Shown in pieces: positions 16,973 through 60,680 of a stretch of DNA of 64,000 nucleotides; position 1 is the first letter of the stretch; each line of letters begins with the position of its first letter. Both the position numbers and the translations under genes were made by a program. The DNA comes from Bacteroidota bacterium (GTDB lineage: Bacteria; Bacteroidota; Bacteroidia; Chitinophagales; Chitinophagaceae): positions 211,006 to 275,005 of the forward strand of contig VGFK01000001.1 in assembly GCA_016868895.1 (NCBI GenBank). The letters run 5' to 3'. A model generated the notes under the pieces. It did no database searches, was not told the origin of the DNA, and saw only the letters and a program-made list of their open reading frames with translations.

Positions 16973-17062
16973 AATCAATCGTCTTAAAATGTTTACAGTA
17001 GTTTGACGCAGAGAACATTCGGAAGTTACCAATTGTTGTCAATAAGAATTATCTTCATGTGT

Positions 17063-20000
17063 ATGAAAACTCAACTTTTTCGGGGATGGCTGATGACGGG
17101 AATCGTCGTTGGTTTTTGCGCTGCCTCTCATGCCCAAACCAGACCAGAAATCATGAAAAGAGAGCTGGATCGCATTGCTGTGGACCAGCGCATCAAAGAA
17201 ACTGAGAACTACGACCGGGCATTGATGCTGGCTGCTCAGAAGGGCTGGAAAACAACCATAACCAACGATAAAGGAAATGTTGCGCGATTGGTCGGCGTAG
17301 ACGAAAAAGGGTTTCCCATGTACGTGGAAACACAGAACAATATTGTAGCAGCTCAAACGATTGGCACAAACAGGCTTTGGACGGGAACATTCAATTTAAC
17401 CGGATCCAACCCATTGTTGACCAACAAAATGGCCATGTGGGATGGAGGCAGGATCAATGCTTCACACGTAGAATACATTGGAAGAACTACGCAACGGGAC
17501 AACCCTTCAGCCAGCAGTCCCGATGGCCATGCTACACACGTAGCCGGCACGCTGATCGCATCAGGAGTCAATCCCAATGCAAAAGGAATGGCCAATGGAC
17601 TGAAAGGAATGTTGGTCTATGATTTCAACAATCACATCAGTGAGATCTCCAATGAAGCCGCCAACTTGCTTGTTTCAAACCATTCATATGGTTCCATTTC
17701 AGGATGGCGATTCAACAGTGGACAAAGCAGATGGGAATTCTGGGGAGCAGTCGGACAAAATGAAGACTGGAAATTTGGAGCCTATTCATCTGAAACGCAG
17801 ATGTGGGATTCCATTGCATGGCTTTCACCCAACTACCTTATTGTAAAGTCAGCCGGAAACAATAGAAATGAATCCGGACCGGCTGTTGGTGCATCTTATT
17901 TCCGATTCGATGCAACGGGCCAAATGACGGATGCAGGTGGACGGCCATCGGATATCAGCAATCAAACAGGCTATGATCTGCTTCCCACCTATTCCAACGC
18001 CAAGAACACACTTACCATCGGAAACGTATTTCCGATTGCAGGCGGTTATACCAATTTCACCGATGTTGCACTCAGCAACAGCAGCAGTGTGGGTCCTACC
18101 GATGATGGCCGCATCAAACCGGATGTCGTTTCAAATGGCGTTGGACTGCTTTCGACGGGTGCTGACAACAATACTGCGTATTCCATTCTTTCTGGTACCT
18201 CTATGGCCGGGCCGGGCATTGCCGGATCTGCTCTTTTGCTTCAGGAATATTTCATGCGCCTGAATAGTGACCAACCTGCTTGGTCTTCTACCATCAAGGG
18301 GTTGATTATTCATACAACCGATCCTGCCGCAGCACTTCCGGGTCCCAATTACCAAACAGGCTGGGGATTGGCAAACTTTCACAGAGCTGCAACTGTCATG
18401 AGCAGTGGCGCATCAAAAGAAATCGTTCAGCGTAACTTAAAAAACGATTCCGTTTACACGATTACAGTCGTGGCCTCCGGCTCAGGCAACTTGAAAGCCA
18501 CGTTGTGCTGGACCGATCCTGCTGCAGAACCGGTTCAAAATGGAACACTGAATTCTAGAACGAAACGCCTCATCAATGATTTAGATCTTCGCATCAAAAG
18601 AGGGTCGCGCACCTATTTTCCGTGGAAGTTGGATTTTTCAAAACCTGCAGATGCTGCCACCAAAGGCGATAACGACATTGACAACGTAGAACAAATTGAA
18701 ATCGATTCCGTACTTCTGGGAGAAACGTATACCATAGAAGTACGGCACAAAGGAAAGCTTACCCGAGGCGACAGCACACAGCGTTATTCGCTTATCATTA
18801 CCGGTATTGGCGGTACAGCATTCGGCAGTTCTGCACCTGCTCAAGCTGAAGGCAGCTTCATTGATTCGCTTTCATTTGGAGGCATCAATAAAAAACAGTT
18901 GGATACCTGCAAAACCTACAGCGATAACCGCGTGCAGACCGCCAGCATAGAATCGGGAGGCAATGCTTCCTTGTATTTGAAAATGAAGAGTTGCGACCAA
19001 ACCAATGCGACGCGATTTGTGAAGGTGTTTGTCGACCTCAACCGCGACGGTGATTTTCTTGATGCAGGTGAACTGGTGGCCAGCAGCAGTGCGCTTTTAA
19101 ATGGAGAAACATATTCTCCTTCTGTAGCCTTTCCCAAAACATTGTCAATGGGGGATAAACACATCATGCGGATCATCGTCAGCGAAACGGCATCCGTTGA
19201 TAATATTCAACCCACTGGTTCATATACCCGTGGTGAAACGCAAGACTATACACTGCTTGTTGTTCGTGCATCAAACGACCTCAGCATTTCCAGTGTAGTC
19301 TATCCGCTGGATGGTGAGTGTGCAGATCCAAAACAATACGTTACTGTTTCTCTGAGGAATGCTGGAAGCAAGCAACAAAATAACATTCCATTGACCACTG
19401 ATGTATTGGAGAACAATGTAAAAATTGCCACGTTGACCGGTGTATTCAATGGAACATTGGCCTCAGGCGCAACCAGTCAGTATACCTTTCAAACGCCATT
19501 TGCCATGCAGGCTGGAAAGCAGTACACATTCAATACTCGTACAAATTTGATCAATGATCAGAATTCCGACAATGACCAAATCACTTCATTTGCCAGTTCA
19601 ACAGCAGCAGGGGGTGTACCCACTAACCTTCAGGCGCTTGTCTGCAACAACACGGCTGTGTTATTCAAGGGAAATGCGGGCATTACGGTTGACGATTATG
19701 TTAGCTGGTTCAGCAGTGACACAGCAAAAGTGCCCTTCCTGACTGTGGCGAGCAATAAAGTTGCCAACAGTACACTGATCACTTCTGACAAAAAATATTG
19801 GGCAGCAGCTAATGATTTAGTGGGCCCAGTGGGTCCGGCGGATAAGGCTGCGTACGCATCCGGAGGATACAATGAGTTCAACGGCAACTTTGTGCGATTC
19901 ACCAATAAAGTTCCCATTGTTATTGAGTCGGTAAAAATGTATATCGGCAATCCCGGAAAGGTTCGGATCATTTATGGTGACTTGGCCAGTGAAAATGGCA

Positions 20001-20869
20001 CAGGGGGATACAGCTATTACAATTATGATCAACGGGATTTCGTCGTCAGCAATACTCGTCCCACTGCAACCGCAGGATCCGTTACCGAAAATGACCCCAA
20101 TGATAAAGGAGCGGTATTCAATTTGAATTTTGGAGTGTTTACACCAGGCAACCATGTTTTGATTATGCAGGCAACGGAGGGAGCAACCATTTATAGAAAC
20201 AATAACATCGGCGCTTCTCCCTACCCTCAAAAGATTGGTGGCATCAATGATGCTTTCACGATAACGGGCAATAGTGTTGTTCCATCTTCTGCAGATCCTG
20301 CCACGTTCTGGTACTTCTTTTACGATATGAAAACAGAAGTTGCAGCGAATACCTGTCCTGGGCCGCGGACACCAGTCACTGCAATCAGTAATGTGATTCC
20401 GGTTGTAACAAAAGTGGGAGATAGCCTGGTGAGTTCCATTGCATCCGGTAACCAATGGCAAAAAGATGGGTTTGATATTCCAAATGCAAAAGGACAGTCA
20501 TACAAACCGACTGAACCCGGCAATTACCGTACAGTAATCGTAGATGCCCTGGGATGCGAGAGCGTTTCTCAAACCATCACGGTTACCGTAACAGCAGTGA
20601 TCAACATTGACCCTGTAGAAATCGGTTTCACAGCAGCCCCCAACCCGAACAACGGTACGTTCAATGTACGCTTTAGGGTAGACGGAAGGGATGATTTGGG
20701 TATTTCGGTACTCAATGCCACCGGAGCAGAAGTGTTCAGACAGCGTCAGAATAACTTCAGTGGTGAATACAATGGAACCATACGGCTGCAGCAACACAAA
20801 GCAGGCGTCTACCTCTTGCGCATCAATCACGGCATGAAACAATACCTGAGAAGGGTGATGGTTTTGTAA
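17063..20869 (+). CDS. Secreted subtilisin-like serine protease with type IX secretion tail
   Basis: A 1268-aa exported S8 protease. Signal peptide 1-24 (cut near SHAQ), prosegment to about 100, then the catalytic domain with D127 (in MWDGGR), H156 (in DGHATHVAGT), oxyanion N266 (SAGNN) and S380 (SGTSMAGPG). C-terminal to it come a beta-sandwich P-type region (about 470-600), a GEVED domain (about 640-740, VFVDLNRDGDFLDAGE), a CARDB-like region (about 745-835), an Ig-like segment (about 1105-1180) and a type A sorting domain of the type IX system (about 1190-1268, PNPNNGTFNV to the final YLRRVMVL). It should pass the outer membrane through the SprA translocon encoded at 53-60 kb. ATG 17063 is chosen over 17057 because it starts the signal peptide. 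Confidence 0.92.
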   Translation: MKTQLFRGWLMTGIVVGFCAASHAQTRPEIMKRELDRIAVDQRIKETENYDRALMLAAQKGWKTTITNDKGNVARLVGVDEKGFPMYVETQNNIVAAQTIGTNRLWTGTFNLTGSNPLLTNKMAMWDGGRINASHVEYIGRTTQRDNPSASSPDGHATHVAGTLIASGVNPNAKGMANGLKGMLVYDFNNHISEISNEAANLLVSNHSYGSISGWRFNSGQSRWEFWGAVGQNEDWKFGAYSSETQMWDSIAWLSPNYLIVKSAGNNRNESGPAVGASYFRFDATGQMTDAGGRPSDISNQTGYDLLPTYSNAKNTLTIGNVFPIAGGYTNFTDVALSNSSSVGPTDDGRIKPDVVSNGVGLLSTGADNNTAYSILSGTSMAGPGIAGSALLLQEYFMRLNSDQPAWSSTIKGLIIHTTDPAAALPGPNYQTGWGLANFHRAATVMSSGASKEIVQRNLKNDSVYTITVVASGSGNLKATLCWTDPAAEPVQNGTLNSRTKRLINDLDLRIKRGSRTYFPWKLDFSKPADAATKGDNDIDNVEQIEIDSVLLGETYTIEVRHKGKLTRGDSTQRYSLIITGIGGTAFGSSAPAQAEGSFIDSLSFGGINKKQLDTCKTYSDNRVQTASIESGGNASLYLKMKSCDQTNATRFVKVFVDLNRDGDFLDAGELVASSSALLNGETYSPSVAFPKTLSMGDKHIMRIIVSETASVDNIQPTGSYTRGETQDYTLLVVRASNDLSISSVVYPLDGECADPKQYVTVSLRNAGSKQQNNIPLTTDVLENNVKIATLTGVFNGTLASGATSQYTFQTPFAMQAGKQYTFNTRTNLINDQNSDNDQITSFASSTAAGGVPTNLQALVCNNTAVLFKGNAGITVDDYVSWFSSDTAKVPFLTVASNKVANSTLITSDKKYWAAANDLVGPVGPADKAAYASGGYNEFNGNFVRFTNKVPIVIESVKMYIGNPGKVRIIYGDLASENGTGGYSYYNYDQRDFVVSNTRPTATAGSVTENDPNDKGAVFNLNFGVFTPGNHVLIMQATEGATIYRNNNIGASPYPQKIGGINDAFTITGNSVVPSSADPATFWYFFYDMKTEVAANTCPGPRTPVTAISNVIPVVTKVGDSLVSSIASGNQWQKDGFDIPNAKGQSYKPTEPGNYRTVIVDALGCESVSQTITVTVTAVINIDPVEIGFTAAPNPNNGTFNVRFRVDGRDDLGISVLNATGAEVFRQRQNNFSGEYNGTIRLQQHKAGVYLLRINHGMKQYLRRVMVL

Positions 20870-36030: not shown

Positions 36031-36699
36031 ATGCTCTACATCGTACCTACACCCATTGGGAATCTGGCCGACATGACCTACCGGGCTGTCGCAATCCTTC
36101 AATCAGTGGATACCATACTTGCTGAAGATACCCGCACCTCCGGTGTATTGCTGAAACATTATGCAATCAGCAAGCCCCTCCTCGCCTATCACCAGCACAA
36201 CGAACACCAGATTGCGCCTCGACTGATCGGATCACTTCAAACCGGACAGACCATGGCCCTGCTCACCGATGCAGGAACTCCCGGTATTTCCGATCCTGCA
36301 TTCCTATTGGTACGAGAATGCATTCGGCATGGCATTCGCGTGGAATGCCTTCCGGGTGCGACTGCCTTTGTACCGGCATTGATTTGTAGTGGTTTGCCCA
36401 CCGACAGCTTTTGTTTTGAAGGATTCCTTCCCCTGAAAAAAGGAAGACATACCCTGCTCACCGCATTGTCACAAGAAAAAAGAACCGTCATCCTCTATGA
36501 ATCGTCGATGCGACTGGTAAAAACATTGGATCAACTCATGACCTATTTTGGGGAAGACCGCTCGTGTGCTGTATCGCGGGAACTCACTAAAAAATTCGAA
36601 GAAACCGTCCGCGGTTCGTTGAAAGAAGTGCACGAACACTTTGCTGCGAAAGGTGTTAAAGGCGAGATCGTCATCGTGATTGCCGGTATTCATCATTGA
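36031..36699 (+). CDS. rsmI: 16S rRNA 2'-O-methyltransferase RsmI
   Basis: This enzyme methylates the 2'-oxygen of C1402 in 16S rRNA using SAM. The 222-aa protein has the tetrapyrrole methylase-like fold: MLYIVPTPIGNLADMTYRA at 1-19, EDTRTSGVLL, LLTDAGTPGISDPA around 85-98, CLPGATAFVPALICSGLP, and the C-terminal SRELTKKFEE. ATG 36031 matches the family start; the frame is open to 35818 but overlaps purS. The stop TGA overlaps the TTG start of the helicase gene. Shorter C-terminus than E. coli RsmI (286 aa), as in other Bacteroidota. Confidence 0.92.
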   Translation: MLYIVPTPIGNLADMTYRAVAILQSVDTILAEDTRTSGVLLKHYAISKPLLAYHQHNEHQIAPRLIGSLQTGQTMALLTDAGTPGISDPAFLLVRECIRHGIRVECLPGATAFVPALICSGLPTDSFCFEGFLPLKKGRHTLLTALSQEKRTVILYESSMRLVKTLDQLMTYFGEDRSCAVSRELTKKFEETVRGSLKEVHEHFAAKGVKGEIVIVIAGIHH

Positions 36700-39155
36700 A
36701 CGCTACTTCCATCATATCAACTTGGCTAAACAACAAGGGCTGGTCGCCTTTCGCTTTTCAGGAAGAGACCTGGCACCATATGCTCAATGGAAAAAGCGGA
36801 CTGGTCAACGCACCCACCGGATGCGGAAAGACCTACTCGGTTTTTGTGGGCGCTTTGATCCGATTCATGGAAGAACATCCGGAAGATTGGAATAAAAAGA
36901 GGAACAACGGATTGCGCTTGCTGTGGATCACGCCCCTTCGCGCACTGGCAAAAGATATTGGTCGCGCAATGGAAGAAGCCATCGCTGAATTGGGAATGCA
37001 GTGGCGGGTGGGCATTCGCAACGGAGATACTTCAACGACTGAGCGACAAAAACAAAAAAAACATGCTCCGGAAATTCTGATCATTACTCCGGAAAGCCTT
37101 CACGTTTTGCTTTCTACCTCCCATCACGAACAATTTTTTTCTACACTGGACACGATTGCTGTGGATGAATGGCATGAACTGCTGGGATCAAAAAGAGGTG
37201 TTCAGGTAGAACTGGCCATCAGCCGCATCATTCAAGCCCCCAAGCAATTGCCGGTTCTGTGGGGCATTTCAGCGACAATCGGAAATCTGAATGAAGCGCA
37301 AGATGTTTTATTGCATCCCGTTACAACACATCCAAACAATAAAAGCAGTGGCGTAACGGTAACGGCTTCGATGGAAAAACAGATAGAACTGGTCCCTATT
37401 TTCCCCGATGAAATTGAGCATTATCCCTGGGCCGGACACCTGGGCATTAAACTGGCGCATAAACTGGTCCCCATCATAGAAGCAAGTCGATCCACGTTGA
37501 TTTTCATCAATACACGGGGAATGAGTGAGATCTGGTACCAAACACTTCTATCATTGGTACCGGATTGGGCCGGCGCAATAGCCTTGCACCACGGCAGCAT
37601 CGATCGCGCCTTGCGGGTTTGGGTGGAAGAAGCCTTGCATGAAGGTCGACTCAAAGCGGTAGTGTGCACAGCAAGCCTGGATCTGGGAGTTGATTTTCGT
37701 CCCGTTGAAACAGTCATCCAGGTCGGATCACCCAAAGGCGTGGCACGCTTCCTTCAGCGAGCAGGCAGAAGCGGTCATGCTCCGGGGGCAGTGAGCCGCA
37801 TCTATTTCCTTCCCACCCATTCGCTGGAACTGGTGGAGGCCGCTGCGCTGAAAGAAGCAATAGAACTAAAAAATATAGAAGCCAAGCCACCACAGCAACT
37901 CTGTTTTGATGTGCTCACCCAATACCTCTGCACCCTCGCAGCAGGAGATGGATTTGATGCAGATAAAATCAAAGCTGAGGTATCCAGCACATTTTGTTTT
38001 CGGGAAATGATGCACCAAGAATGGCAAGAAGTAATTGCATTCATCACTACCGGAGGTAATGCATTGCAGCAATACGATGAGTTTCAAAAAATTGTGATGG
38101 AGGATGACCAGCACTACCGCATGCAAGGAAGAAGAACGATCATGCGTCACCGCATGCACATCGGGACCATCGTGAGCGATGCCATGCTCAAAGTAAAATG
38201 GATGAGTGGCGGATACATAGGCGTCATTGAAGAATGGTTCATATCCAAACTTGAACCCGGTGATGTGTTTTCACTTGCCGGCAGAAACGTTGAATTGGTA
38301 TCCATTCAAGCAATGACGGTACTGGTTCGAAAAAGCAATGCAAAAAAATCGATTGTTCCCAGCTGGATGGGGGGTCGCATGCCCCTCACGGCCAACATGG
38401 GATATTTACTTCGAAAAAAACTTTCCGATGCTGCAGTGCAGACCCCATCGGATCCAATCCTGCAGCGACTGGCCCCTTTAATGGAACAACAGGCCAATCT
38501 GTCTCACATTCCCTCCCACAATGAGCTACTGGTAGAAATGATTGAAACCAAAGACGGCCACCATCTGTTTGTGCACACGTTTGAAGGCCGCCTTGTCAAC
38601 GAGGCCATGGCCGCTATACTCGCCTGGCGCATCTCCAAGATCCAACCCATCAGCTTCACATTTGCCATGAACGATTATAGCTTTGAGCTGCTCAGTGATC
38701 AGCCTATACCGGTTGATGAAGCATCCATGCGCCACTTGTTCAGCTCAGAGAATCTGTCCGCTACCATTCAGCAGAGCGTCAATGCGACCGAAATGGCAAA
38801 ACGAAAATTCAGGGATATCGCAGTGATTGGCGGACTCATTTTTCAGGGCATGCCGGGACAAGAAAAAAAAGCACGACACTTGCAGTCTTCCGCCTCGTTG
38901 CTGTTCAACGTGTTTTTGGAATACGATCGGAATAATTTATTGATGCGACAGGCGTTCAATGAAGTCATGCAGGATCAAATGGAAGAATCACGACTCAGAG
39001 CAATGCTGCATCGTATTGAACAGTCGACAATCGTACTGACCCGACCAAAAAAATTGACGCCGTTCTCCTTTCCAGTGAAAGTCGATTCCATCCGCGAAAA
39101 CGTCTCCTCAGAAAAACTGGAAGACCGGGTCAAGAAAATGATTCAGGGGAATTAA
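36696..39155 (+). CDS. Ligase-associated DNA damage response DEXH box helicase (Lhr-like)
   Basis: An 819-aa SF2 helicase of the Lhr type with the family's C-terminal extension. Walker A is APTGCGKTY at 39-47, Walker B DEWH at 157-160, motif VI QRAGRSGHAPG near 353. The set named ligase-associated DNA damage response contains this helicase, an ATP-dependent DNA ligase, an exonuclease and PdeM; only PdeM is near here. Start is TTG 36696, overlapping the rsmI stop (TTGA). It ends the pepP-pssA-purS-rsmI string and overlaps the convergent pdeM by 4 bp. Confidence 0.9.
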   Translation: MNATSIISTWLNNKGWSPFAFQEETWHHMLNGKSGLVNAPTGCGKTYSVFVGALIRFMEEHPEDWNKKRNNGLRLLWITPLRALAKDIGRAMEEAIAELGMQWRVGIRNGDTSTTERQKQKKHAPEILIITPESLHVLLSTSHHEQFFSTLDTIAVDEWHELLGSKRGVQVELAISRIIQAPKQLPVLWGISATIGNLNEAQDVLLHPVTTHPNNKSSGVTVTASMEKQIELVPIFPDEIEHYPWAGHLGIKLAHKLVPIIEASRSTLIFINTRGMSEIWYQTLLSLVPDWAGAIALHHGSIDRALRVWVEEALHEGRLKAVVCTASLDLGVDFRPVETVIQVGSPKGVARFLQRAGRSGHAPGAVSRIYFLPTHSLELVEAAALKEAIELKNIEAKPPQQLCFDVLTQYLCTLAAGDGFDADKIKAEVSSTFCFREMMHQEWQEVIAFITTGGNALQQYDEFQKIVMEDDQHYRMQGRRTIMRHRMHIGTIVSDAMLKVKWMSGGYIGVIEEWFISKLEPGDVFSLAGRNVELVSIQAMTVLVRKSNAKKSIVPSWMGGRMPLTANMGYLLRKKLSDAAVQTPSDPILQRLAPLMEQQANLSHIPSHNELLVEMIETKDGHHLFVHTFEGRLVNEAMAAILAWRISKIQPISFTFAMNDYSFELLSDQPIPVDEASMRHLFSSENLSATIQQSVNATEMAKRKFRDIAVIGGLIFQGMPGQEKKARHLQSSASLLFNVFLEYDRNNLLMRQAFNEVMQDQMEESRLRAMLHRIEQSTIVLTRPKKLTPFSFPVKVDSIRENVSSEKLEDRVKKMIQGN

Positions 39156-39835
39156 TGGGGAATAGCCATCAACTGGGCACTTCCCTTATCTTGTAGGATG
39201 GCATAAACACGATCCTGTTTCTTCGGCTCAACAATATGCTTGCCTGAAAATGCACTGAATGCCGGTAATGTACAGCAGCGATCCGTAAGGTGAAAGCAGG
39301 GTAAAACAGCTTGCTGCTTTCCTTTGCCCGATAACCGAACCCCCGGATGCGTGTGTCCAATAAAATAAAAGCTGTTTTCGTTAAGCTGATGTGGTAACTC
39401 ATGTGAAAACGTAAATGGCCCTTTCTCAAGGTGCGAGCCTATTACGTGAACTCCGCATCGGGCGTATTCATCATCGTGTAAAATCTCATGATTGCCGCGG
39501 ACCAATTGAATTTCAATTCCCCCTAGTGCAGTTCGCCATTTTGAAAACCAATCGTGCTCCAAATTAGCTGCACTATGAAACATATCGCCGGAAATCAGAA
39601 TGGACCTAGGTCGAAAAAAATTCACTTGGTCAAACAAACGAATCAAATCTTCCTGAAACAAAGCCTGAGGAATGGGTATACCCGCCTTTCGGAAATGTGC
39701 AGCTTTACCAATGTGTAGATCTGCCAGAACCAACATCTGTTCTTCTTCCCAAAAAAGACAGCGCTGGGGACTGAGTACGATATGTTGTTGAACAAACGCT
39801 TTGCTGTGAACTGGAATTGAAATTCGTTTCATCAT
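39152..39835 (-). CDS. pdeM: Ligase-associated DNA damage response endonuclease PdeM
   Basis: A 227-aa calcineurin-like phosphoesterase. Metal motifs: LADLHIGKAAHFRKAGI (D and H), SGDMFHS, VRGNHEI and GHTHPGV, in the order and spacing expected. The family acts with an ATP-dependent ligase, an exonuclease and a DEXH helicase in DNA repair; the convergent helicase gene is directly adjacent with a 4-bp overlap. Two start ATGs (39835 and 39832) are adjacent. Starts 21 nt after the murU-like gene on the same strand and could share its transcript. Confidence 0.9.
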   Translation of the reverse strand: MMKRISIPVHSKAFVQQHIVLSPQRCLFWEEEQMLVLADLHIGKAAHFRKAGIPIPQALFQEDLIRLFDQVNFFRPRSILISGDMFHSAANLEHDWFSKWRTALGGIEIQLVRGNHEILHDDEYARCGVHVIGSHLEKGPFTFSHELPHQLNENSFYFIGHTHPGVRLSGKGKQQAVLPCFHLTDRCCTLPAFSAFSGKHIVEPKKQDRVYAILQDKGSAQLMAIPH

Positions 39836-39856: not shown

Positions 39857-40594
39857 TTAACCGAAATGGGCTTCTGCAATGGCTATAGACTCTGGCCTTC
39901 CTACATCAATCACTGCATCACCGGTATGATCCATTCCTTTGATGAGGTGGTGGGCAGCGAGTTGAATATAGCTATCGGTTATTGAAAAAACACCTCCGGT
40001 GGGCAAAGCATCGAATAAGCGAGGCGAAATGATGTTCACGCCTGAAAATGAATAAGCAAGGCTATCATTGAGAGCACGATCACTCCATCGGTACTCAGAC
40101 GTCGTGTTGTTTTTCCACCCCCACAACCGCATGGTTGAATCAAACAGAAATTGTCGGGTACTGGCGCGGCTGGTGACGGCCAGCGTAGCAACAGCATCGG
40201 ATTGCTGATGTGCGGCATACAAACGGTTAAGATCAAGATCGGTAAGGATATCGACATTCATCACCACAAAGGGACGACCTCCTTCCATGAGGTGAGGACG
40301 CGCATAGACCAATCCGCCCCCCGTCTCCAGTGGCTGTTCCTGTTCGTGGGAAATAATGATAGAGGAAGGATCAGAAAGGGTTGCAATCTCATCAATGATC
40401 TGATCGGCAAAATGGTGCACATTGACTACGATGCGAGCAATGCCAAAGCTGCGCAGATAAGAAATATTTCGTTCCAGTAACGTTCGGCCATTGACCCGTG
40501 CCAGTGCTTTGGGATGATGATCCGTAAAAGGTTTCAGTCGCGTACCCAACCCTGCAGCAAACAGCAAAGCAGTTGCTCCCTCAATAGGCTTCAT
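39857..40594 (-). CDS. MurU/RmlA-like sugar-phosphate nucleotidyltransferase
   Basis: A 245-aa nucleotidyltransferase that joins NTP to a sugar-1-phosphate. The N-terminal signature LLFAAGLGTRLKPFTDHHPKAL-type (positions about 8-29) is the dinucleotide-binding loop, and NVDILTDLDLNRL holds the metal Asp. Pattern and partner suggest MurU (MurNAc-1-phosphate uridylyltransferase), since the preceding gene encodes an AmgK-like kinase; mannose-1-phosphate guanylyltransferase is the alternative. ATG 40594 is chosen; TTG 40621 is also open. It overlaps the 3' end of the upstream kinase gene by 14 bp, indicating coupled translation. Confidence 0.82.
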   Translation of the reverse strand: MKPIEGATALLFAAGLGTRLKPFTDHHPKALARVNGRTLLERNISYLRSFGIARIVVNVHHFADQIIDEIATLSDPSSIIISHEQEQPLETGGGLVYARPHLMEGGRPFVVMNVDILTDLDLNRLYAAHQQSDAVATLAVTSRASTRQFLFDSTMRLWGWKNNTTSEYRWSDRALNDSLAYSFSGVNIISPRLFDALPTGGVFSITDSYIQLAAHHLIKGMDHTGDAVIDVGRPESIAIAEAHFG

Positions 40595-42038
40595 TTTTCC
40601 AATTTTTTGACTCTTGCTCAATGTGTGAGAGGCACACCTTTACCTTATAGGTTTCCTGCAAATGATGAGCCAACTGATCGGCTGCGAAAACACTGCGGTG
40701 CTGACCACCGGTACACCCAAAACTGATGGTGAGTCCCTCAAACCCTCGTTTGAGATACTCTTCTACCGTGATCCCTACCATTCCATATACATGCTGAAGA
40801 AATAAGGGCATTTCGGTTTGACGCATCAGGTATTCCTTGACTTCTTTGTCGCGACCGGTCAGTGTTTTATACAGATCGATTCTCCCCGGATTCAAAATTC
40901 CCCTGCAATCAAATACATAACCGCCGCCGTTACCGAATCGATCTTCGGGTACCCCTTTCCGGTAGGAGAAACTGTTGATTTGAATCTGCAGAGCTGAATC
41001 GGGACCAGCAACAACCGGCTCAAACCGTCGTTGCATCTCTGGAGCAACAATGGCTTCTAATACTTTCTGCAATGCCGGTAGTCGCAACGGGAGTTTTCGA
41101 TGCTCGAGGAACCAGGCTAAATTTTTTAAAGCAAACGGGATGCTGGCGATGAAATGTTGCTTGCGTTCAAACAATCCTCTGAATCCATATGCACCCAGTG
41201 TCTGGAGCATGCGGATCAGCACAAAACCATCGTAATTATCCATGAACGCCTGTTTGGATAATTTTCCGTCCAGCAAACGGTTCACTTCGTCAAAATAATG
41301 ATCGACCAGTTGCTGTCGCCATACATACGGCATCTGTGCACGAGCCTGCCAAAGCAAGGAAGCAATGTCATACTGAAGTGCGCCCTGCATGCCCCCCTGG
41401 TAATCGATGAAATACGGTCGGCCTTCGTGGAGCATGATGTTTCGGCTCTGACAATCACGGTGCATGAAGTATTGATGCTCTTCTTGCATCAGATAATTGC
41501 TCAACATCTCAAAATCATTGAGCAACATATTTTTATCGTAGGGAAGATCGAGTGCACGAACAAAATAATAGAGGAAATACAACAGATCCGAATAAATTGC
41601 TTGCTTATCAAATGAACGTGTGGCAATGCAATGGGAATAATCAAATTCTTTCCCTCCTACTACTTGCAGTCGCGCCAATGCTGTGCAGGTAGAGCGAAAT
41701 GCTTCGAATACTTCCTGATTGAATCCTTTTTGTTGCATCAGATCGAACAAGGAATGATCACCCAGATCGGATTGAACATAGAACCGCAACGCTGGATCCT
41801 GAAATACAATGTCAGGTACATTCAGTGATTTTCCCCTGAGCTGTTGGGTAAATGCAAGAAAGGCCTTGTTTTCGGGCTGATTGGAGGGGTTATAGGTCAG
41901 GATATGCGAATGTCCGTCGGCAAGTAATCGGAAATACTGCCGATTGCTTCCCGCTTGATTTAAGCTGGTCAGTGAAGTTGAGGCGCCCGGCTTCCACTGT
42001 TCCAGGGCATCCAGCGTAGATTGAAATGAAGTATGCAT
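40581..42038 (-). CDS. AmgK-like aminosugar kinase fused to a RapZ C-terminal domain
   Basis: A 485-aa fusion. Residues 1-340 are an aminoglycoside-phosphotransferase-fold kinase with the catalytic loop HRDCQSRN (H193, D195, N200) and metal Asp D212 in FIDYQGGM; AmgK phosphorylates MurNAc/GlcNAc at C1. Residues 350-485 match the RapZ C-terminal domain: SFSYRKGVPEDRFGNGGGY, LTGRDKEVKEYL, and the ligand-binding GCTGGQHRSV at 441-450. In E. coli that domain senses glucosamine-6-phosphate. The N-terminal kinase half of RapZ itself is not present. Overlaps the downstream murU-like gene. A TAACTTTG box lies 7 nt before the ATG. Function as a cell-wall sugar recycling enzyme with a sensor is inferred. 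Confidence 0.85.
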   Translation of the reverse strand: MHTSFQSTLDALEQWKPGASTSLTSLNQAGSNRQYFRLLADGHSHILTYNPSNQPENKAFLAFTQQLRGKSLNVPDIVFQDPALRFYVQSDLGDHSLFDLMQQKGFNQEVFEAFRSTCTALARLQVVGGKEFDYSHCIATRSFDKQAIYSDLLYFLYYFVRALDLPYDKNMLLNDFEMLSNYLMQEEHQYFMHRDCQSRNIMLHEGRPYFIDYQGGMQGALQYDIASLLWQARAQMPYVWRQQLVDHYFDEVNRLLDGKLSKQAFMDNYDGFVLIRMLQTLGAYGFRGLFERKQHFIASIPFALKNLAWFLEHRKLPLRLPALQKVLEAIVAPEMQRRFEPVVAGPDSALQIQINSFSYRKGVPEDRFGNGGGYVFDCRGILNPGRIDLYKTLTGRDKEVKEYLMRQTEMPLFLQHVYGMVGITVEEYLKRGFEGLTISFGCTGGQHRSVFAADQLAHHLQETYKVKVCLSHIEQESKNWKNEAY

Positions 42039-52804: not shown

Positions 52805-53389
52805 ATGATCGCCAGCCTCACCGGTAAATTCCTTGTAAAAACTCCGTCGTTCGTCCACCTGGACGTAAACGGTGTCGGCTATGAAGTGCAGATCAGCCTC
52901 CATACCTTTTCCAGCATTCAGGATAAAAAAGAAGGGACCCTCTTCACCCATCTTCAAATCAAGGAGGATGCACATGTCTTGTTCGGATTTTCAGAACTTG
53001 CTGAAAAAGAACTGTTTATACAACTCATCGGCGTAAACGGCGTGGGGGCTTCTACTGCCCGGATGATGCTCTCCTCCATGCAGCCGGCTGAACTCCGATC
53101 CGCCATTGCCTCCGGAAATACCAGCGCGCTGGAACGCATCAAAGGGATCGGCAGAAAGTCCGCCGAGCGGATCGTGCTGGAACTCCGGGAAAAAATTGTA
53201 AAATCTGTGCCAGAAAGTACTTCTTCGGGCTTCAAATACAATACTTTAGACCAAGATGCGTTAAATGCTTTAGTGGCATTGGGTATACCCCGAAACGTGG
53301 GCGAAACAGCAATCAAAAAAGTGAAATCGTCCACCACCGGTGAACCCGATCTTGAAACACTCATTAAAAAATCCCTGCAGCTTATTTGA
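52805..53389 (+). CDS. ruvA: Holliday junction branch migration protein RuvA
   Basis: RuvA holds the four-way DNA junction open for RuvB. The 194-aa protein starts MIASLTGKFLVKTPSFVHLDVNGVGYEV, with a helix-hairpin-helix pair LIGVNGVGASTARMMLS and ALERIKGIGRKSAERIVLELREK, then a C-terminal domain III that contacts RuvB. ATG 52805 matches the family start; the frame is open to 52769. A TACATTCG box at 52779-52786, one base off consensus, is 18 nt upstream. It overlaps the maximal frame of sprA by 50 bp; ruvA next to sprA is a conserved pair in Bacteroidota. Confidence 0.95.
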   Translation: MIASLTGKFLVKTPSFVHLDVNGVGYEVQISLHTFSSIQDKKEGTLFTHLQIKEDAHVLFGFSELAEKELFIQLIGVNGVGASTARMMLSSMQPAELRSAIASGNTSALERIKGIGRKSAERIVLELREKIVKSVPESTSSGFKYNTLDQDALNALVALGIPRNVGETAIKKVKSSTTGEPDLETLIKKSLQLI

Positions 53390-56300
53390 GAAGAACTCTA
53401 CTCAAACAAACGACATCCTGAAGTTGCGAGCGTTATCCAGTACGATAACCGGTTATTTTTTGTGTGTGGGACTGCTGACGGCAGTATCCACCCTGCACAC
53501 GTTTGCCCAGTCCTCCACGTCGACGGATACACTACCCAAAACCGATACCCTGCGGTTTCCCTTGAATGATCGGCATGCAGATAAACTGAGTGCAGGCAAA
53601 CGCAACCCCTTCGATCTGCGTGATCCTTCCAATGTGGCCGATTCCGTGGTCTACGATGCCAAGACCAAAGAGTACTACATCGTTGAAAAGATCGGAAACA
53701 GCTATTTCCGAAAACCGACTCCACTGAGCTTTGAAGAATACCTGCGGATACAAAGCAGAAAGTTGGAAGTGGATTATTTTCAGAAAAAAGCAAACACCTA
53801 TAGTCTGCTCAACCGAAAGCTCGTCAAACCCAAGCTCAAGATGGGGGAAGATTTATTCAACCGCTTATTCGGCAATGGGAAAATCGATATTCGTCCACAA
53901 GGGGAAGTAAACGTCACAGCAGGGTATCAGGGGCAAAACATCAAAAACCCTACACTCCCTGAGCGGGCCAGAAGAAACGGAGGACTTGATTTTGATATGT
54001 CGGCCAACCTCAACGTGGTGGGTAACATCGGCGACAAAATGCGGTTCCCGATCAGTTACAATACGTTGTCGACATTTGATTTCGAAAATCAACTCAAACT
54101 CGATTACACCGGCGATGCCGATGATATCTTCAAGAAAATTGAAATCGGCAATACGTCTTTTGCTTCCAAAGGCACACTGATCCCTGGTGCGCAGCAACTT
54201 TTTGGCATCAAAACACAAATGCAATTTGGAAAACTCTGGGTATCGACCGTCTTTGCCAGTCAGCGTTCTCAACGTCAATCCGTATCCGTCAAAGGCGGCA
54301 CCAACGCAGCTCCGTTTGAAATAAAAGCAGACGATTACGAAGAGAACCGGCACTTCCTGTTGGCTCAACATTTCAGAAGAGAATACAACAAGGCCATGAA
54401 AAATTTACCCATCATCAATTCACAGGTGCAGATCCTTCGCCTGGATGTATGGGTGACCAATCGAACCGGAGCCACCACCAATGCACGGGATGTGGTGGGA
54501 CTCATGGACCTGGGTGAAGACAAACCCTATCAGCAACCCCCCATCATCACTCCCAATGGAAGTATTTTTCCTTCCAATGGAACCAACGACCTCTACAGCA
54601 AAATTGTACGCAACTCCATCAGCCGCGATCCTGCACAAATCGTGAACTACCTCAACGGTTTAGGATTGCAACCGGTCAGGGATTTTGAAAAAACATTTGC
54701 CAGAAAACTCGACAGCACGCAGTACTACTTCAATCGCCAACTCGGATTCATCTCCCTCAACATCAGTCTTCAACCCGACGAAGTGCTCGCCGTGGCGTTC
54801 CAATACACCATCAATGGAAAAGTCTACCAAGTGGGTGAATTCGCACAAGACATTCCAGTAGATGCAAACAACGGCGTCCAAAAAGTACTGTTCCTCAAAC
54901 TGCTGAAAGGTACCTCACAACGGACTGCACTTCCAATGTGGGACCTGATGATGAAAAATATTTATCCCGTCGGATCCGGACAATTGGAACGTCAGGATTT
55001 TCAATTCAATGTGCTCTATCAAGAACCCGGAGGTGGTGAAAAAAGATTTTTACCGGAAGGCGATCAGGCAGGTGTTCCATTGATTACCCTGCTAAACCTG
55101 GATCGACTCAACAACCAAAACGACCCACAGCCCGATGGCATGTTCGACTATGTGGAGGGCTATACCGTCAACTCCTATCAAAGCCGCGTCATCTTCCCGG
55201 TGCTTGAACCATTCGGACATGATCTTGATTTCGCGTTCAATTCAAATCCGTCACTGCGCAACCAATATTTATTTTATCCGCTCTACGACACGATTAAAGC
55301 CATAGCACAAACCTATGCCAACCTGAATCGCTTTATCATGCGCGGCAGCTCAAAATCATCGGGAGGTGCCAGCGGTGAAATCTCTCTCAATGCCTTCAAC
55401 ATTCCTCAGGGATCGGTGACGGTTACGGCAGGTGGACAAGTATTGCAGGAAAATGTGGACTACACCATCGATTATATTTCCGGTACTCTTCGCATCATCA
55501 ACAGCTCCATCACGCAATCCGGTTTACCAGTCGACGTAAAATTTGAAAACAACGCAACCTTTGGTGTGCAACAGCGCACCTACATGGGAATGCGCTGGGA
55601 TTACCTCTTCAACGACAAACTATCGGTAGGCGGTACACTCGTTCGCCTCAGCGAACGTCCCTTTTTCACAAAAATGGAATACGGATCTGATCCCATCCGC
55701 AACACCATGAGCGGAGTGGACATCGCGTACAACAGTGAATTACCTCGACTCAATAAATGGTTGAGCAAACTTCCGTTCTATGAAGCATCCGGTACTTCCC
55801 GGATCAATTTCGCAGCAGAGGCTGCACGGATGACACCTGGACATGCCCCGCAAATTGGAAGAGGTTCAGGTGGACTCATCTATTTAGATGATTTTGAAGG
55901 AACACGGGCCAGCATAGACCTAAGGTTTCCAATTGTTGGATGGACACTTGCATCTACCCCCAAAGGCGCAACAGATCGCTTCGGAAATGTTCTGTTCCCG
56001 GAAGCAACTGCATTCGATAACCTGGATTATGGAAAGAACCGCGCCAAACTTGCCTGGTACAACATTGAACCAATTCTGCAAGAACGCCGCAACCCCAACA
56101 ATCCCATCCGCAACGATCTTGAACAATTATCCGATCCCCGGGTCCGCAGCATTGGTCAGCAAGAAATTTTTCCACGTCGAACACCCGACTACGGTCAGAG
56201 CCAATTGGTGACATTTGACCTCGCCTACTACCCGCGTGAGCGAGGTCCGTACAACTACGATGCAGCAACCGTTGATGCCAACGGACGACTGCAAAACCCA

Positions 56301-59300
56301 AACAAACGTTGGGGAGGCATCATGCGTGGTATTGATCAAACCGACTTCGAAACAGCCAATATTGAATTTGTTGAATTCTGGGTCCTGGATCCGTTCATCA
56401 AGAATACCAATCCTGCCGGAGGTTCATTGTACCTGAACCTGGGTAATATTTCAGAAGATATCCTGAAGGACTCGCGCAGATTTTATGAAAATGGTCTTGC
56501 CACTCCTACCATCCCTTCTGCCACAACACGCTCCATTTGGGGCAATGCTCCGCTCAATCCTATCCAGATCACGCAAGGATTCAGCAACAACCCGGCAGAT
56601 CGTCCGTTTCAAGATGTGGGACTGGATGGCTTGAGCGACTCAGCAGAAACAATTGCACGCAGGCAGTATTTGAATGACCTGGCTGGTCGACTTGGAACCA
56701 CTTCACGACCTTATCAGGATGCAGCAGCGGACCCATCCTCGGATAATTTCAGATACTACCGCGATGAAAGCTTTGATCGCAGTAATTCAGGTATTCTTGC
56801 ACGCTACAAAAATTTCAATAACCCTCAAGGCAACTCCCCCATCGCTCGAGCAGGCGATGCCTTCGCATCCGCATTTACGCTGTATCCGGATGGAGAAGAT
56901 TTGAATCGCGACAATACCCTCAACGAAGCAGAAGAATATTTCCAGTACCGCATTGATCTGCGACCCGCAAACGATCCTGGAATGCAGGTGGGACAGAACT
57001 ACATCGCAGATCGAAAAGTTGTCGGTGTTATCCTCGCAGATGGCTCCAAACAAGATCAACTCTGGTACCAATTCCGCGTACCGGTAATGGCCTACAACAG
57101 TAAAGTGGGAGATATTCCTGACTTTAAATCCATTCGCTTCTTCAGAATGTTCCTGACCGACTTTGCCGATTCCATTGTATTGCGTTTTGCAAAGCTGGAA
57201 TTGGTGCGCAACAACTGGCGCCGCTTTGCCTATGAGCTGGATTCGACCGGCCTGTATAAACCCATAGACCTCACCAACAACCTCACCCGCTTCAATGTAT
57301 CCGCAGTAAATATTGAGGAGAACGATAAACGAGACCCTATACCCTATCGCACCCCGCCAGGAATTGAACGTGTTCAAACGCTGAGCAATGGAGGAATCAA
57401 CATTTTGCAAAACGAACAGGCTCTGAGCATGAATGTGGTCAACCTCAAAGAGGGAGATGGCAGAGCAGTGTTCAAATCATTCAGCAACGACCTTCGGCAG
57501 TATTCCCGCCTGCTGATGTTTTATCACGCTGAAAGCCTAAAGGGATACAGTGCAATACGGGATGGCGAAGTGTATGCAGTGGTGCGATTGGGAAATGATT
57601 ATGTCAACAACTATTATGAAATCCGTTTCCCGCTGAAAGTGACACCATTTGGCACCAGCGATGAGACGGTCATATGGCCATTGGAAAATGAACTCGATAT
57701 TGACTTGCTGGATCTGGTGAAACTTAAAAATGAGCGCAATCTCAACACCAGTAACGCAAATGCGATTTATAGAAAAACAATTGGAAACAAAACGTTTTCC
57801 ATCATCGGCAACCCCAATCTCGGTGAGATTCGCGGCATATTGGCCGGCCTGGAAAATCCAAAAGATCCTGCCGGAGGCAGACCTGTCAATGTGGAAGTCT
57901 GGATCAACGAGCTGCGCTTGTCGGGACTGAATGAAGATGGCGGTTGGGCTGCAGTGGGACAAATGAATCTTCAACTTGCCGACCTGGGATCCGTTTCCAT
58001 GTCGGCCAACGTACACACCATTGGCTTCGGTCAGCTGGAACAACGCGTCAATGAACGGTTTCGAGACGACTTCCAGCAATTTGATATCTCAACCAATCTG
58101 CAACTGGGCAAACTCCTTCCACAACAAATGCGGTTGGAAATCCCATTCTTTGCGAACCTTTCTCAAACCATGAGCTCTCCGGAATATGATCCATACGACA
58201 GAGACGTAAAGCTCAGGGATAAACTTAAAATCTATCGAAACAGCAGGGATTCCATACGGAACAATGCTGTAGATTTCACAGGATTGCGCACAATCAATTT
58301 CACCAATGTCCGCTTCACTCCACGTCCGGATAAAAAAATCAAATTATGGAGCATATCCAATTTTGATTTCAGTTACTCACTGACTGAAACACGGCAACGC
58401 AATCCATTGATCGAAGGAAATGAGGTCAATAAAACACAAGGGGGTATTGGATACAACTACTCATCTGAATCCAAGTACATCGAGCCGTTTAAAAAATGGG
58501 TGAAAACGCCAACACCCTGGCTCGACTTCATCCGGAACATCAACTTCAATCCGATGCCTTCACTAATCGGTGTCCGATTTGACACGCGTCGTCAATTTGG
58601 AGCAATTCGTCCTCGAAATGTAGGCGGTGGAAAATACCTGATCCCTGAAACCTATGATAAGTACTTTGTGATTGACCGGAATTATAACCTGCGCTGGGAC
58701 CTCACCCGTTCCTTTAATTTTGATTTCAAGGCCACCAATAATTCTCGGGTAGACGAACCATATGGACGAATCGATACCAAAGAGAAACGCGACTCGCTTA
58801 TGCGGAACTTTTTCAAAGGTGGAAGAAATACAGTTTACAATCAAAGCGCAGACTTCAGCTACAATCTGCCCACAACCAGCTTCCCATTCCTGGATTGGAC
58901 CACCATGAATATCGCCTACCGCAGCACTTACAGCTGGATTGGGGCCTCGCGACTGGCCATCAACCTGGGAAACACCATTCAGAACAGCGGACAATCGGGC
59001 GCAACTGCCGAACTGAATTTCACCCAGCTCTATTCAAAATTCAAGGTCTTCCGTGCTATCGATGAAAGCAGCATCGATCCAAGTGATACCGATGTACCTG
59101 CCAGTTCTGGTCCAAAACCAAAACAGAAAAAGAAAAAAGATTCGCTCACAGCAAAACAACAATCCAAGGAAGAAATCAAGCTGGCTAAAAAAGAAGAAAA
59201 GAAATTGATCAAAGAAGAGCGCAAGCAGAAACCGGTACAATTGAATGCCACCGAAAAAATGATCCTCCGACTCATTACCTCTTTGAAGCGAGTGGGCATG

Positions 59301-60680
59301 ACCTATAACGAGGGTGGCACCACTTTCCTTCCGGGGTATGTGGATAGCACCAGTTTCTTTGGACAGAATTGGAAAAGCATGGCGCCGGGATTGGATTTTG
59401 TAATGGGTCGACAACCCAATCAAAATTGGCTGGAACAAGTGGGTAAAAAGGGACTGATTACCAAAGATCCTATCCTCAATAACCTGTTCATGCAGAATTA
59501 CGAACAGCGGATGAACATCACTGCTCAGGTAGAACCCATTCGCGACCTGGTGATTGATCTGAACCTCGATAAAAGTCTTACCAAAAATTATACCACGCTG
59601 TTCAAGGATACCGTAGGGACTGGAAATTTCAATCAGCTCAATCCTTATTCAGGCGGTGGATTCAGCATCAGTTACATTTCTTTCCAAACCTTGTTTGGAA
59701 AATTTGATCCAAACAATACAAGTGAAACGTTTAAAACGTTTGAAAATAACCGATCCATTCTTTCAAAACGGTTGGGCGAGAAAAATCCATACAGCCAGCA
59801 AGCCGGTGCCGACGGATTCTATAAAGGATACGGTCGCTATGCACAGGATGTACTGGTACCCTCATTCATAGCCGCCTACACCAAAAAAGATCCGAATACG
59901 GTTGCACTCTTGAAAAATGGAGGCACCGGAGGCTCGGTGAGATCCAATCCATTCAGCGGATATTTACCCAAACCCAACTGGCGGCTCACCTATACCGGCC
60001 TCAGTCGCATGGAAAGCCTCCAACAATACTTTACTAATTTCACGGTATCGCATGGCTATAGTTCCACACTGAGCATGAACAGTTTCAATTCAGCACTCTT
60101 GTTCCAGGATACATTGCTGTATGGATTCCCCTCGTTCGTGGACACCATCTCTGGAAATTTTGTCCCCTACTTCCTGCTGCCGAACATTTTGATTTCTGAA
60201 CAATTTGCACCATTGATCGGAGTGGATTTTTCAACAACGGGACAATTCTCGGGACGGTTTGAATACAGAAAATCACGACAGCTGAGCATGAGCTTGGTGG
60301 ATTTCCAGCTCAGCGAAGTGCGCTCTACTGAAATCACTTTTGGCATGCGGTGGAGAAAACGCGGATTCCCACTGCCCTTCAGGATCAAGCTGGGTAAAAA
60401 AGATGCAACCAATAAATTGGAAAATGATATCACGTTCTCACTGGACTTCAGCATCCGAGACGACATCAACTCCAATTCACGACTCGATCAGGCAAATGCA
60501 TTTGCAACCGGTGGACAAAAAGTAGTAAGCATACGACCCACCATTGATTATGTCATCAGTAATCGGGTGAATATTCAGCTGTTCTTTGATCAGCGGCGAC
60601 TCAATCCGTATGTTTCCAATGCGGCCCCTTCGGTGAATACACGGGCCGGATTGCAGGTCAGGATTTCCCTTGCACAGTAG
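53340..60680 (+). CDS. sprA: SprA, type IX secretion and gliding motility outer-membrane translocon
   Basis: SprA forms the huge 36-strand outer-membrane barrel of the type IX secretion system through which CTD-tagged proteins leave. The 2446-aa frame is typical in length. A signal peptide ending near TLHTFAQSS is visible about residues 33-57; early blocks include RNPFDLRDPSN and NGKIDIRPQGEVNVTAGYQGQ. A highly basic region (about 1920-1970, rich in Lys and Glu) interrupts the barrel. The coordinates are the maximal frame (GTG 53340); no ATG exists near the signal peptide and the true start may be TTG 53424. It overlaps ruvA in part, and the SDR gene on the opposite strand by 23 bp. Confidence 0.95.
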   Translation: MNPILKHSLKNPCSLFEKNSTQTNDILKLRALSSTITGYFLCVGLLTAVSTLHTFAQSSTSTDTLPKTDTLRFPLNDRHADKLSAGKRNPFDLRDPSNVADSVVYDAKTKEYYIVEKIGNSYFRKPTPLSFEEYLRIQSRKLEVDYFQKKANTYSLLNRKLVKPKLKMGEDLFNRLFGNGKIDIRPQGEVNVTAGYQGQNIKNPTLPERARRNGGLDFDMSANLNVVGNIGDKMRFPISYNTLSTFDFENQLKLDYTGDADDIFKKIEIGNTSFASKGTLIPGAQQLFGIKTQMQFGKLWVSTVFASQRSQRQSVSVKGGTNAAPFEIKADDYEENRHFLLAQHFRREYNKAMKNLPIINSQVQILRLDVWVTNRTGATTNARDVVGLMDLGEDKPYQQPPIITPNGSIFPSNGTNDLYSKIVRNSISRDPAQIVNYLNGLGLQPVRDFEKTFARKLDSTQYYFNRQLGFISLNISLQPDEVLAVAFQYTINGKVYQVGEFAQDIPVDANNGVQKVLFLKLLKGTSQRTALPMWDLMMKNIYPVGSGQLERQDFQFNVLYQEPGGGEKRFLPEGDQAGVPLITLLNLDRLNNQNDPQPDGMFDYVEGYTVNSYQSRVIFPVLEPFGHDLDFAFNSNPSLRNQYLFYPLYDTIKAIAQTYANLNRFIMRGSSKSSGGASGEISLNAFNIPQGSVTVTAGGQVLQENVDYTIDYISGTLRIINSSITQSGLPVDVKFENNATFGVQQRTYMGMRWDYLFNDKLSVGGTLVRLSERPFFTKMEYGSDPIRNTMSGVDIAYNSELPRLNKWLSKLPFYEASGTSRINFAAEAARMTPGHAPQIGRGSGGLIYLDDFEGTRASIDLRFPIVGWTLASTPKGATDRFGNVLFPEATAFDNLDYGKNRAKLAWYNIEPILQERRNPNNPIRNDLEQLSDPRVRSIGQQEIFPRRTPDYGQSQLVTFDLAYYPRERGPYNYDAATVDANGRLQNPNKRWGGIMRGIDQTDFETANIEFVEFWVLDPFIKNTNPAGGSLYLNLGNISEDILKDSRRFYENGLATPTIPSATTRSIWGNAPLNPIQITQGFSNNPADRPFQDVGLDGLSDSAETIARRQYLNDLAGRLGTTSRPYQDAAADPSSDNFRYYRDESFDRSNSGILARYKNFNNPQGNSPIARAGDAFASAFTLYPDGEDLNRDNTLNEAEEYFQYRIDLRPANDPGMQVGQNYIADRKVVGVILADGSKQDQLWYQFRVPVMAYNSKVGDIPDFKSIRFFRMFLTDFADSIVLRFAKLELVRNNWRRFAYELDSTGLYKPIDLTNNLTRFNVSAVNIEENDKRDPIPYRTPPGIERVQTLSNGGINILQNEQALSMNVVNLKEGDGRAVFKSFSNDLRQYSRLLMFYHAESLKGYSAIRDGEVYAVVRLGNDYVNNYYEIRFPLKVTPFGTSDETVIWPLENELDIDLLDLVKLKNERNLNTSNANAIYRKTIGNKTFSIIGNPNLGEIRGILAGLENPKDPAGGRPVNVEVWINELRLSGLNEDGGWAAVGQMNLQLADLGSVSMSANVHTIGFGQLEQRVNERFRDDFQQFDISTNLQLGKLLPQQMRLEIPFFANLSQTMSSPEYDPYDRDVKLRDKLKIYRNSRDSIRNNAVDFTGLRTINFTNVRFTPRPDKKIKLWSISNFDFSYSLTETRQRNPLIEGNEVNKTQGGIGYNYSSESKYIEPFKKWVKTPTPWLDFIRNINFNPMPSLIGVRFDTRRQFGAIRPRNVGGGKYLIPETYDKYFVIDRNYNLRWDLTRSFNFDFKATNNSRVDEPYGRIDTKEKRDSLMRNFFKGGRNTVYNQSADFSYNLPTTSFPFLDWTTMNIAYRSTYSWIGASRLAINLGNTIQNSGQSGATAELNFTQLYSKFKVFRAIDESSIDPSDTDVPASSGPKPKQKKKKDSLTAKQQSKEEIKLAKKEEKKLIKEERKQKPVQLNATEKMILRLITSLKRVGMTYNEGGTTFLPGYVDSTSFFGQNWKSMAPGLDFVMGRQPNQNWLEQVGKKGLITKDPILNNLFMQNYEQRMNITAQVEPIRDLVIDLNLDKSLTKNYTTLFKDTVGTGNFNQLNPYSGGGFSISYISFQTLFGKFDPNNTSETFKTFENNRSILSKRLGEKNPYSQQAGADGFYKGYGRYAQDVLVPSFIAAYTKKDPNTVALLKNGGTGGSVRSNPFSGYLPKPNWRLTYTGLSRMESLQQYFTNFTVSHGYSSTLSMNSFNSALLFQDTLLYGFPSFVDTISGNFVPYFLLPNILISEQFAPLIGVDFSTTGQFSGRFEYRKSRQLSMSLVDFQLSEVRSTEITFGMRWRKRGFPLPFRIKLGKKDATNKLENDITFSLDFSIRDDINSNSRLDQANAFATGGQKVVSIRPTIDYVISNRVNIQLFFDQRRLNPYVSNAAPSVNTRAGLQVRISLAQ

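Follow-up and report, generated by a model that had tools for sequence, protein, structure and literature searches.

What does the C-terminal domain of the RNase adapter RapZ do when it is joined to a sugar kinase? This question is raised by a 64,000-nucleotide stretch (hereafter, the window) of contig VGFK01000001.1 from a Bacteroidota bacterium of the family Chitinophagaceae, in which an APH-fold kinase resembling AmgK is fused to a RapZ C-terminal domain (RapZ-C) and overlaps a gene for a MurU-like nucleotidyltransferase. RapZ is studied as an RNA-binding sensor of glucosamine-6-phosphate (GlcN6P), and the E. coli structure has raised the question of whether Cys247 may be catalytic, with a ligand whose chemistry had changed (PMC9841335). 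The parts of the locus are known, whereas their combination, its spread, and the accompanying loss of RNA-related features are unreported as far as our searches go; no earlier account of a RapZ-AmgK fusion was found in the literature searched, which leaves out most subscription papers.

An initial annotation, made from the letters of the window, had proposed that an APH kinase and a RapZ C-domain, each with its named motifs, share one 485-residue frame, and this was borne out. The open reading frame (ORF) in question (positions 40581..42038, minus strand, as are all features of the fusion) begins with ATG and runs unbroken through both domains. Its kinase part (residues 1-335; 41034..42038) matches the Pfam APH family over residues 26-249 (PF01636, 53.6 bits with a cut-off of 23.2), and the best NCBIfam family is AmgK (NF045759, 58.8 bits, residues 29-253). 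For the C-terminal part, the domain search, which that annotation had advised, returned the RapZ-C model over residues 350-469 (40632..40991; PF22740, 113.2 bits with a cut-off of 27, E-value 1.1e-32), and the NCBIfam RapZ model (NF003828, 99.9 bits) aligns with the C-terminal half only. Sequence matches of the fusion in the PDB at an E-value of 0.01 were confined to E. coli RapZ (PDB ID: 5o5s, 3e-13) and 3csv, the latter being also the single match of the kinase profile and the Foldseek match of the kinase (1.6e-14), which places this part in the APH-type kinase fold. Here, Arg194, Asp195, Arg199, and Asn200 of the catalytic loop HRDCQSRN (residues 193-200; 41439..41462) are identical in all 55 aligned kinases, as is Asp212 of IDYQGG (residues 211-216; 41391..41408), a motif that we take to be where APH kinases carry their metal-binding Asp. 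The catalytic Asp and Asn (Asp195 and Asn200) and the metal-binding Asp (Asp212) of the AmgK type are thus present throughout. No Pfam match to the RapZ N-terminal domain or to a HAD domain was obtained in the fusion protein, and the search for a further RapZ elsewhere in this genome gave just the one RapZ-C match. Scans for promoters and terminators gave matches no more frequent than in shuffled sequence.

When set beside AmgK of Pseudomonas and Caulobacter, the fusion shares the APH fold, the invariant catalytic residues, the best NCBIfam kinase family, and a MurU gene next door, but its RapZ-C lies outside the AmgK match. Beside RapZ/YvcJ of E. coli and Firmicutes, the likeness lies in the C-terminal domain, with its CTGGxHRS motif and phosphate loop, yet an APH kinase stands in place of the N-terminal P-loop domain, and the domain has lost His190 as well as several RNA contacts. 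Moreover, E. coli RapZ is shorter at the point where the fusion has a segment ending in GGG before the VFDCR motif.

The next gene (39857..40594, minus strand, 245 residues) is a MurU-like sugar-1-phosphate nucleotidyltransferase, as had been claimed, and the 14-bp overlap with the fusion (40581..40594) holds for its ATG at 40594, while an alternative TTG at 40621 would give 41 bp. MurU is the best NCBIfam family of its product (NF045761, 115.7 bits), and the PDB matches are 4y7t and 8hhd, the second of which is named N-acetylmuramate alpha-1-phosphate uridylyltransferase. In both family and PDB matches, then, the neighbor resembles MurU, the uridylyltransferase of N-acetylmuramic acid (MurNAc) 1-phosphate.

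The fusion is not peculiar to this window. A survey across Bacteroidota, which the initial annotation had suggested, covered 296 genomes and found RapZ-C in 36, of which 27 have it fused to the kinase (frames of 478-524 residues), with a MurU-like gene beside the fusion in 21 of these 27. In the other nine genomes, RapZ-C is a separate ORF (134-155 residues), and in seven of them (L031, L050-L055) the kinase, RapZ-C, and MurU ORFs stand in a row; in the remaining two (G180 and G271) there is no kinase or MurU within 14 kb around RapZ-C, and the kinase lies elsewhere in the genome. In fact, RapZ-C is accompanied by this kinase in all 36 genomes (27 fused, seven side by side with kinase and MurU, two unlinked), and no RapZ-sized frame occurs in the 296. 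A second sample consisted of 17 relatives from one genome-contig scan (15 records name Bacteroidota groups and two read 'uncultured bacterium'), among which 15 have the one-frame fusion (the frames of L012 and L013 are broken) and 16 have a MurU-like gene after it (the L018 copy is cut by the contig end), with none seen at L014. The recurrence of the same frame in relatives and surveyed genomes (15/17 and 27/36) rules out a frameshift or an assembly join of two genes. Also, records from Parabacteroides distasonis and Bacteroides finegoldii, filed as plasmids, encode 476-residue fusions under the RefSeq name 'RNase adapter RapZ' (L095:2981-4411 and L096:2981-4411); in both, the product of the next gene, labeled 'nucleotidyltransferase family protein', matches MurU. 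A Prevotella record also has the fusion, with no MurU match in the stretch examined. In the kinase tree (55 rows), the six separate genes of family f4 fall beside fusions of the window's own family, at an unstarred fork (94/76), and L031 falls among other fusions, in a tree that has a midpoint root only and an unsettled bootstrap. Because this tree puts the seven separate-gene cases among the fusions, the simpler reading is probably that fusion came first and was followed by a split after which the genes stayed neighbors.

Two side observations belong here. Downstream of MurU, L051 has a possible lysine decarboxylase/LOG-type gene (L051:8103-8855, PF03641 in the Pfam scan of L051), and similar ORFs are found at L052-L055. 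In addition, five phage records (MT837443, MT839161, MT836462, MT837446, and MT839078), all short unannotated fecal contigs, encode the fusion at 37-40% identity and 84-97% coverage, and are probably carry-over of bacterial DNA; the viral contigs searched for the domain gave no relative.

As for what the two genes do, homology, gene order, and genome content together make it very probable that they produce UDP-MurNAc from salvaged MurNAc. The kinase part would phosphorylate C1 of salvaged MurNAc, and the product of the overlapping gene would convert the resulting MurNAc-1-phosphate to UDP-MurNAc. This salvage role is well supported because four genomes (G115, G132, G216, and G267) have the fusion and MurU with no MurA above cut-off and no MurB match. 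Among 40 genomes (the 36 with RapZ-C and four of family f17), MurA is above cut-off in 35, and the five others, all RapZ-C-positive, are these four and G180. Of the five, G115, G132, and G267 have only weak MurA matches (47-78 bits, where second matches in other genomes also fall), and G180 and G216 have no match at all; MurB, searched for in 16 genomes, is without a match in the four and has one in G180. The four are 99-100% complete and represent three families, including that of the window, and their fusion and MurU genes are untruncated and retain the motifs of RapZ-C and MurU. In these genomes, the kinase/MurU pair is the only known route to UDP-MurNAc, which makes them candidate MurNAc auxotrophs. 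The cell-wall sugar recycling unit envisaged by the initial annotation thus gains support from the MurU partner, from gene order across the phylum, and from these four genomes. Since MurA, MurB, MurQ, AnmK, and NamZ are all present in the window's own genome, the pair would be an extra route there. According to one report, Tannerella forsythia has neither MurA nor MurB and relies on MurNAc, and AmgK and MurU probably stand in for the missing enzymes (PMC7670621); its AmgK and MurU, expressed in E. coli, served as positive control for MurNAc-probe labeling in a preprint (PMC13041923). Parabacteroides, which belongs to the family of T. forsythia, carries the fusion, so that a kinase of this sort is probable for T. 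forsythia as well.

The partnership can be followed through co-occurrence. A MurU-like ORF scores at least 109 bits in 34 of the 36 RapZ-C genomes (105 bits in G180 and an ambiguous 95 bits in G271), and in 19 of 20 RapZ-C-negative genomes the best MurU score is at most 72 bits, with G021 reaching 121 bits in a 356-residue ORF. Still, the MurU-model score alone was rejected as a marker, being insufficiently specific given its matches in RapZ-C-negative genomes: in 59 such genomes outside f17, ORFs of at most 262 residues score at least 100 bits in five (G016, G039, G070, G191, and G226), and others attain at least 100 bits in ORFs of about 350 or 840-910 residues. More specific was kinase profile A3, which, at an E-value of 1e-6, matched all four RapZ-C-positive genomes given (at least 245 bits), 19/19 genomes of f17 (68-142 bits), and 0/57 RapZ-C-negative genomes outside f17.

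Family f17, which may be Chlorobiaceae, had no RapZ-C match in the 296-genome survey. There, the kinase adjoins a MurU-like gene, and NamZ, an exo-beta-N-acetylmuramidase, adjoins that MurU-like gene in all ten genomes compared by coordinates. A Pfam scan of L080 from this family shows a MurU-like protein with a hexapeptide extension and a NamZ gene with both NamZ domains; the kinase, MurU-like, and NamZ genes stand in a row at L080, L081, and L082, followed at L080 and L082 by an ORF resembling a transporter. AnmK is absent from all 21 f17 genomes searched.

If the pair salvages MurNAc, what does RapZ-C add? To address this, we aligned 51 Bacteroidota domains (42 fused and nine separate) with E. 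coli RapZ, the numbering of which is used for this domain. Cys247, Thr248, Gly249, Gly250, His252, Arg253, Ser254, Asp182, Arg184, Asn188, Pro189, and Gly200 are identical in all 51 and in E. coli, so that Cys247, Thr248, Gly249, His252, and Arg253 of the phosphate pocket are kept throughout; in the window, this pocket is the C-x5-R-S loop CTGGQHRS (residues 442-449 of the fusion; 40692..40715, minus strand). GlcN6P is generally present in wall-making cells. We propose that RapZ-C would keep the RapZ phosphate loop and bind an amino-sugar phosphate, either GlcN6P or MurNAc-6-phosphate, the latter of which AnmK would supply, and that the domain, much as the initial annotation had inferred in having the sensor control the kinase, would gate the kinase in cis and thereby match salvage to the state of the amino-sugar pool, acting without RNAs of the GlmY/GlmZ type. 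Consistent with this, E. coli RapZ-C alone binds GlcN6P (PMC7073468). For the whole account, namely UDP-MurNAc salvage with RapZ-C as an RNA-free sensor of the kinase, in which the domains, how well they are conserved, their gene neighbors, and their co-occurrence are observed and we infer the substrates, the ligand, and the direction of control, we see the chances as evenly balanced, and we rank the sensor first and an enzymatic role second.

Several observations weigh against this account. All three equivalog-level comparisons fall far short, with cut-offs of 550 for AmgK, 244 for RapZ, and 250 for MurU against the 58.8, 99.9, and 115.7 bits given above, and the MurU model also scores at least 100 bits in some RapZ-C-negative genomes that lack this kinase. 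The E. coli pocket has five residues, and one of these, His190, is replaced by Gly in 51/51 domains. More conspicuously, mean identity among the 42 fusions is 55.0% for RapZ-C and 46.3% for the kinase, the former being the more conserved in 808 of 861 fusion pairs, and this conservation and the invariant Cys seem to exceed what a pure sensor would need. Lastly, to judge by genome context, the kinase appears to serve without RapZ-C in f17.

Alternatively, RapZ-C could itself be an enzyme, a prospect that we consider unlikely on balance. Here, a cysteine-phosphatase-like site would remove the 6-phosphate from AnmK-made MurNAc-6-phosphate, so that one protein replaces MupP and AmgK of Pseudomonas; put more broadly, RapZ-C would use its cysteine to remove phosphate from amino-sugar 6-phosphates, or to catalyze a related transfer, and would be joined here to the enzyme that acts next in the pathway. 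The fusion would then suffice to convert MurNAc-6-phosphate to MurNAc-1-phosphate, and E. coli RapZ would be a related protein that was recruited for work on RNA. The C-x5-R-S loop, which is invariant not only in the 51 Bacteroidota domains but in eight RapZ of other groups (seven other genera and E. coli), we take to be a signature of cysteine phosphatases, in which C-x5-R-[ST] lies between a strand and a helix. Just this arrangement is predicted by the domain model (mean predicted local distance difference test score of 86.8), where a strand ends at the Cys (residue 100) and a helix begins at the Arg (residue 106), and the full-length model agrees (strand to Cys442, helix from Arg448, with residues 381-410 of low confidence). 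However, while RapZ-C has the loop of PTP-like cysteine phosphatases, Foldseek gave only RapZ at an E-value of 0.001 or better, and no phosphatase or PTP fold, among the matches listed (50 of 171). Catalysis is also favored by the outcome of C247S in E. coli and by the ligand having been transformed, but the E. coli pocket mutants lose RNA binding, so that their effect is explained without it (PMC9841335).

The genome content is similarly divided on this point. In 12 of the 36 RapZ-C genomes, AnmK is present without MurQ, and an exit from MurNAc-6-phosphate is therefore needed; moreover, f17 lacks AnmK and RapZ-C alike, though as one family it counts as one observation. On the other hand, AnmK is absent from 10 of the 36 (G019, G031, G116, G124, G140, G156, G188, G230, G267, and G294; for G216, AnmK is counted as present by a 43-bit match at a contig end), and seven of the ten also lack MurQ, which makes it less likely that dephosphorylating MurNAc-6-phosphate is all that RapZ-C does. 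All seven do have a BcrAD_BadFG-type kinase, a possible source of sugar-6-phosphate. In the window's genome, MurQ offers MurNAc-6-phosphate another way out, and HAD phosphatases could perform the same step. A catalytic RapZ-C would fill the step of MupP, the MurNAc-6-phosphate phosphatase, but MupP is a HAD enzyme of a very large protein family (PMC5371407) and the fusion is without such a domain.

It is improbable that RapZ-C serves mainly as a module for dimerization or folding, keeping the kinase, or kinase plus MurU, assembled. E. coli RapZ-C is a dimer (PMC5737377) and seven of the nine separate RapZ-C ORFs adjoin both kinase and MurU, as such a module might, but a polar phosphate pocket is among the strictly conserved positions. 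We also find little likelihood in a kinase and nucleotidyltransferase that act on another sugar, such as N-acetylglucosamine or a glycan sugar, rather than MurNAc. In its favor are the AmgK and MurU scores far below the equivalog cut-offs and the MurU-model matches in short ORFs of a few kinase-less genomes, for example G070, where the neighbors resemble polysaccharide genes; against it, the pair is kept in genomes without MurA above cut-off and without MurB, NamZ stands beside it in f17, and the T. forsythia pair was used in the MurNAc-probe control (PMC13041923), with a Parabacteroides of the same family having the fusion.

Finally, that RapZ-C binds RNA and makes the fusion a riboregulator of the E. 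coli kind, acting on amino-sugar genes, is very improbable. Among the residues lining RNA in E. coli (Lys170, Arg184, Lys194, Arg196, Arg211, Arg238, and Lys251; PMC9841335) Arg184 is kept in 51/51, and in the 42 fusions position 170 is basic in 41, position 196 is Lys in 37, and the C-terminal tail has a Lys or an Arg at position 282 in 31. Against this reading, Arg238 and Lys270 are replaced by non-basic residues in 51/51, Lys251 is Gln in 50/51, Lys194 and Arg211 are lost in most, and no domain keeps His190, which belongs to the pocket that E. coli RapZ needs in order to bind RNA. The fusion also lacks the RapZ N-terminal domain, and in the window, the only part of the genome searched for them, no GlmY or GlmZ model attains its gathering score. 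The suggestion of the initial annotation that the unit works without the E. coli small RNA partners fits with the changes at His190 and Arg238, with further RNA contacts missing from most domains, with the missing RapZ-sized frames in the 296 genomes, and with this window result.

Around the locus, the MurU-like gene is adjoined by that of the endonuclease PdeM (39152-39835, minus strand; TIGR04123, 196 bits), which faces a helicase of the ligase-associated DNA damage response (36696-39155, plus strand; TIGR04121, 1081 bits), an order also found at locus L002. Farther away in the window are a 2446-residue ORF for a motility/secretion protein (53340-60680, plus strand; SprA_N, 580.9 bits) and a subtilase with a Por secretion tail (17003-20869).

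Taken as a whole, the presence of RapZ-C in a kinase fusion suggests that this domain has a metabolic job that is independent of RNA. For annotation, this means that the RefSeq name 'RNase adapter RapZ' conceals a wall-sugar kinase, and, in genomes without MurA and MurB, the fusion would be essential. As the Bacteroidota RapZ-C comes without the RapZ N-terminal domain and without several RNA contacts, and is attached to a metabolic enzyme, its effect on its ligand can be asked about apart from RNA. The question of the E. coli structure paper, whether Cys247 may be catalytic, given a ligand that had changed chemically, can now be put to the test in a protein whose pathway is likely.

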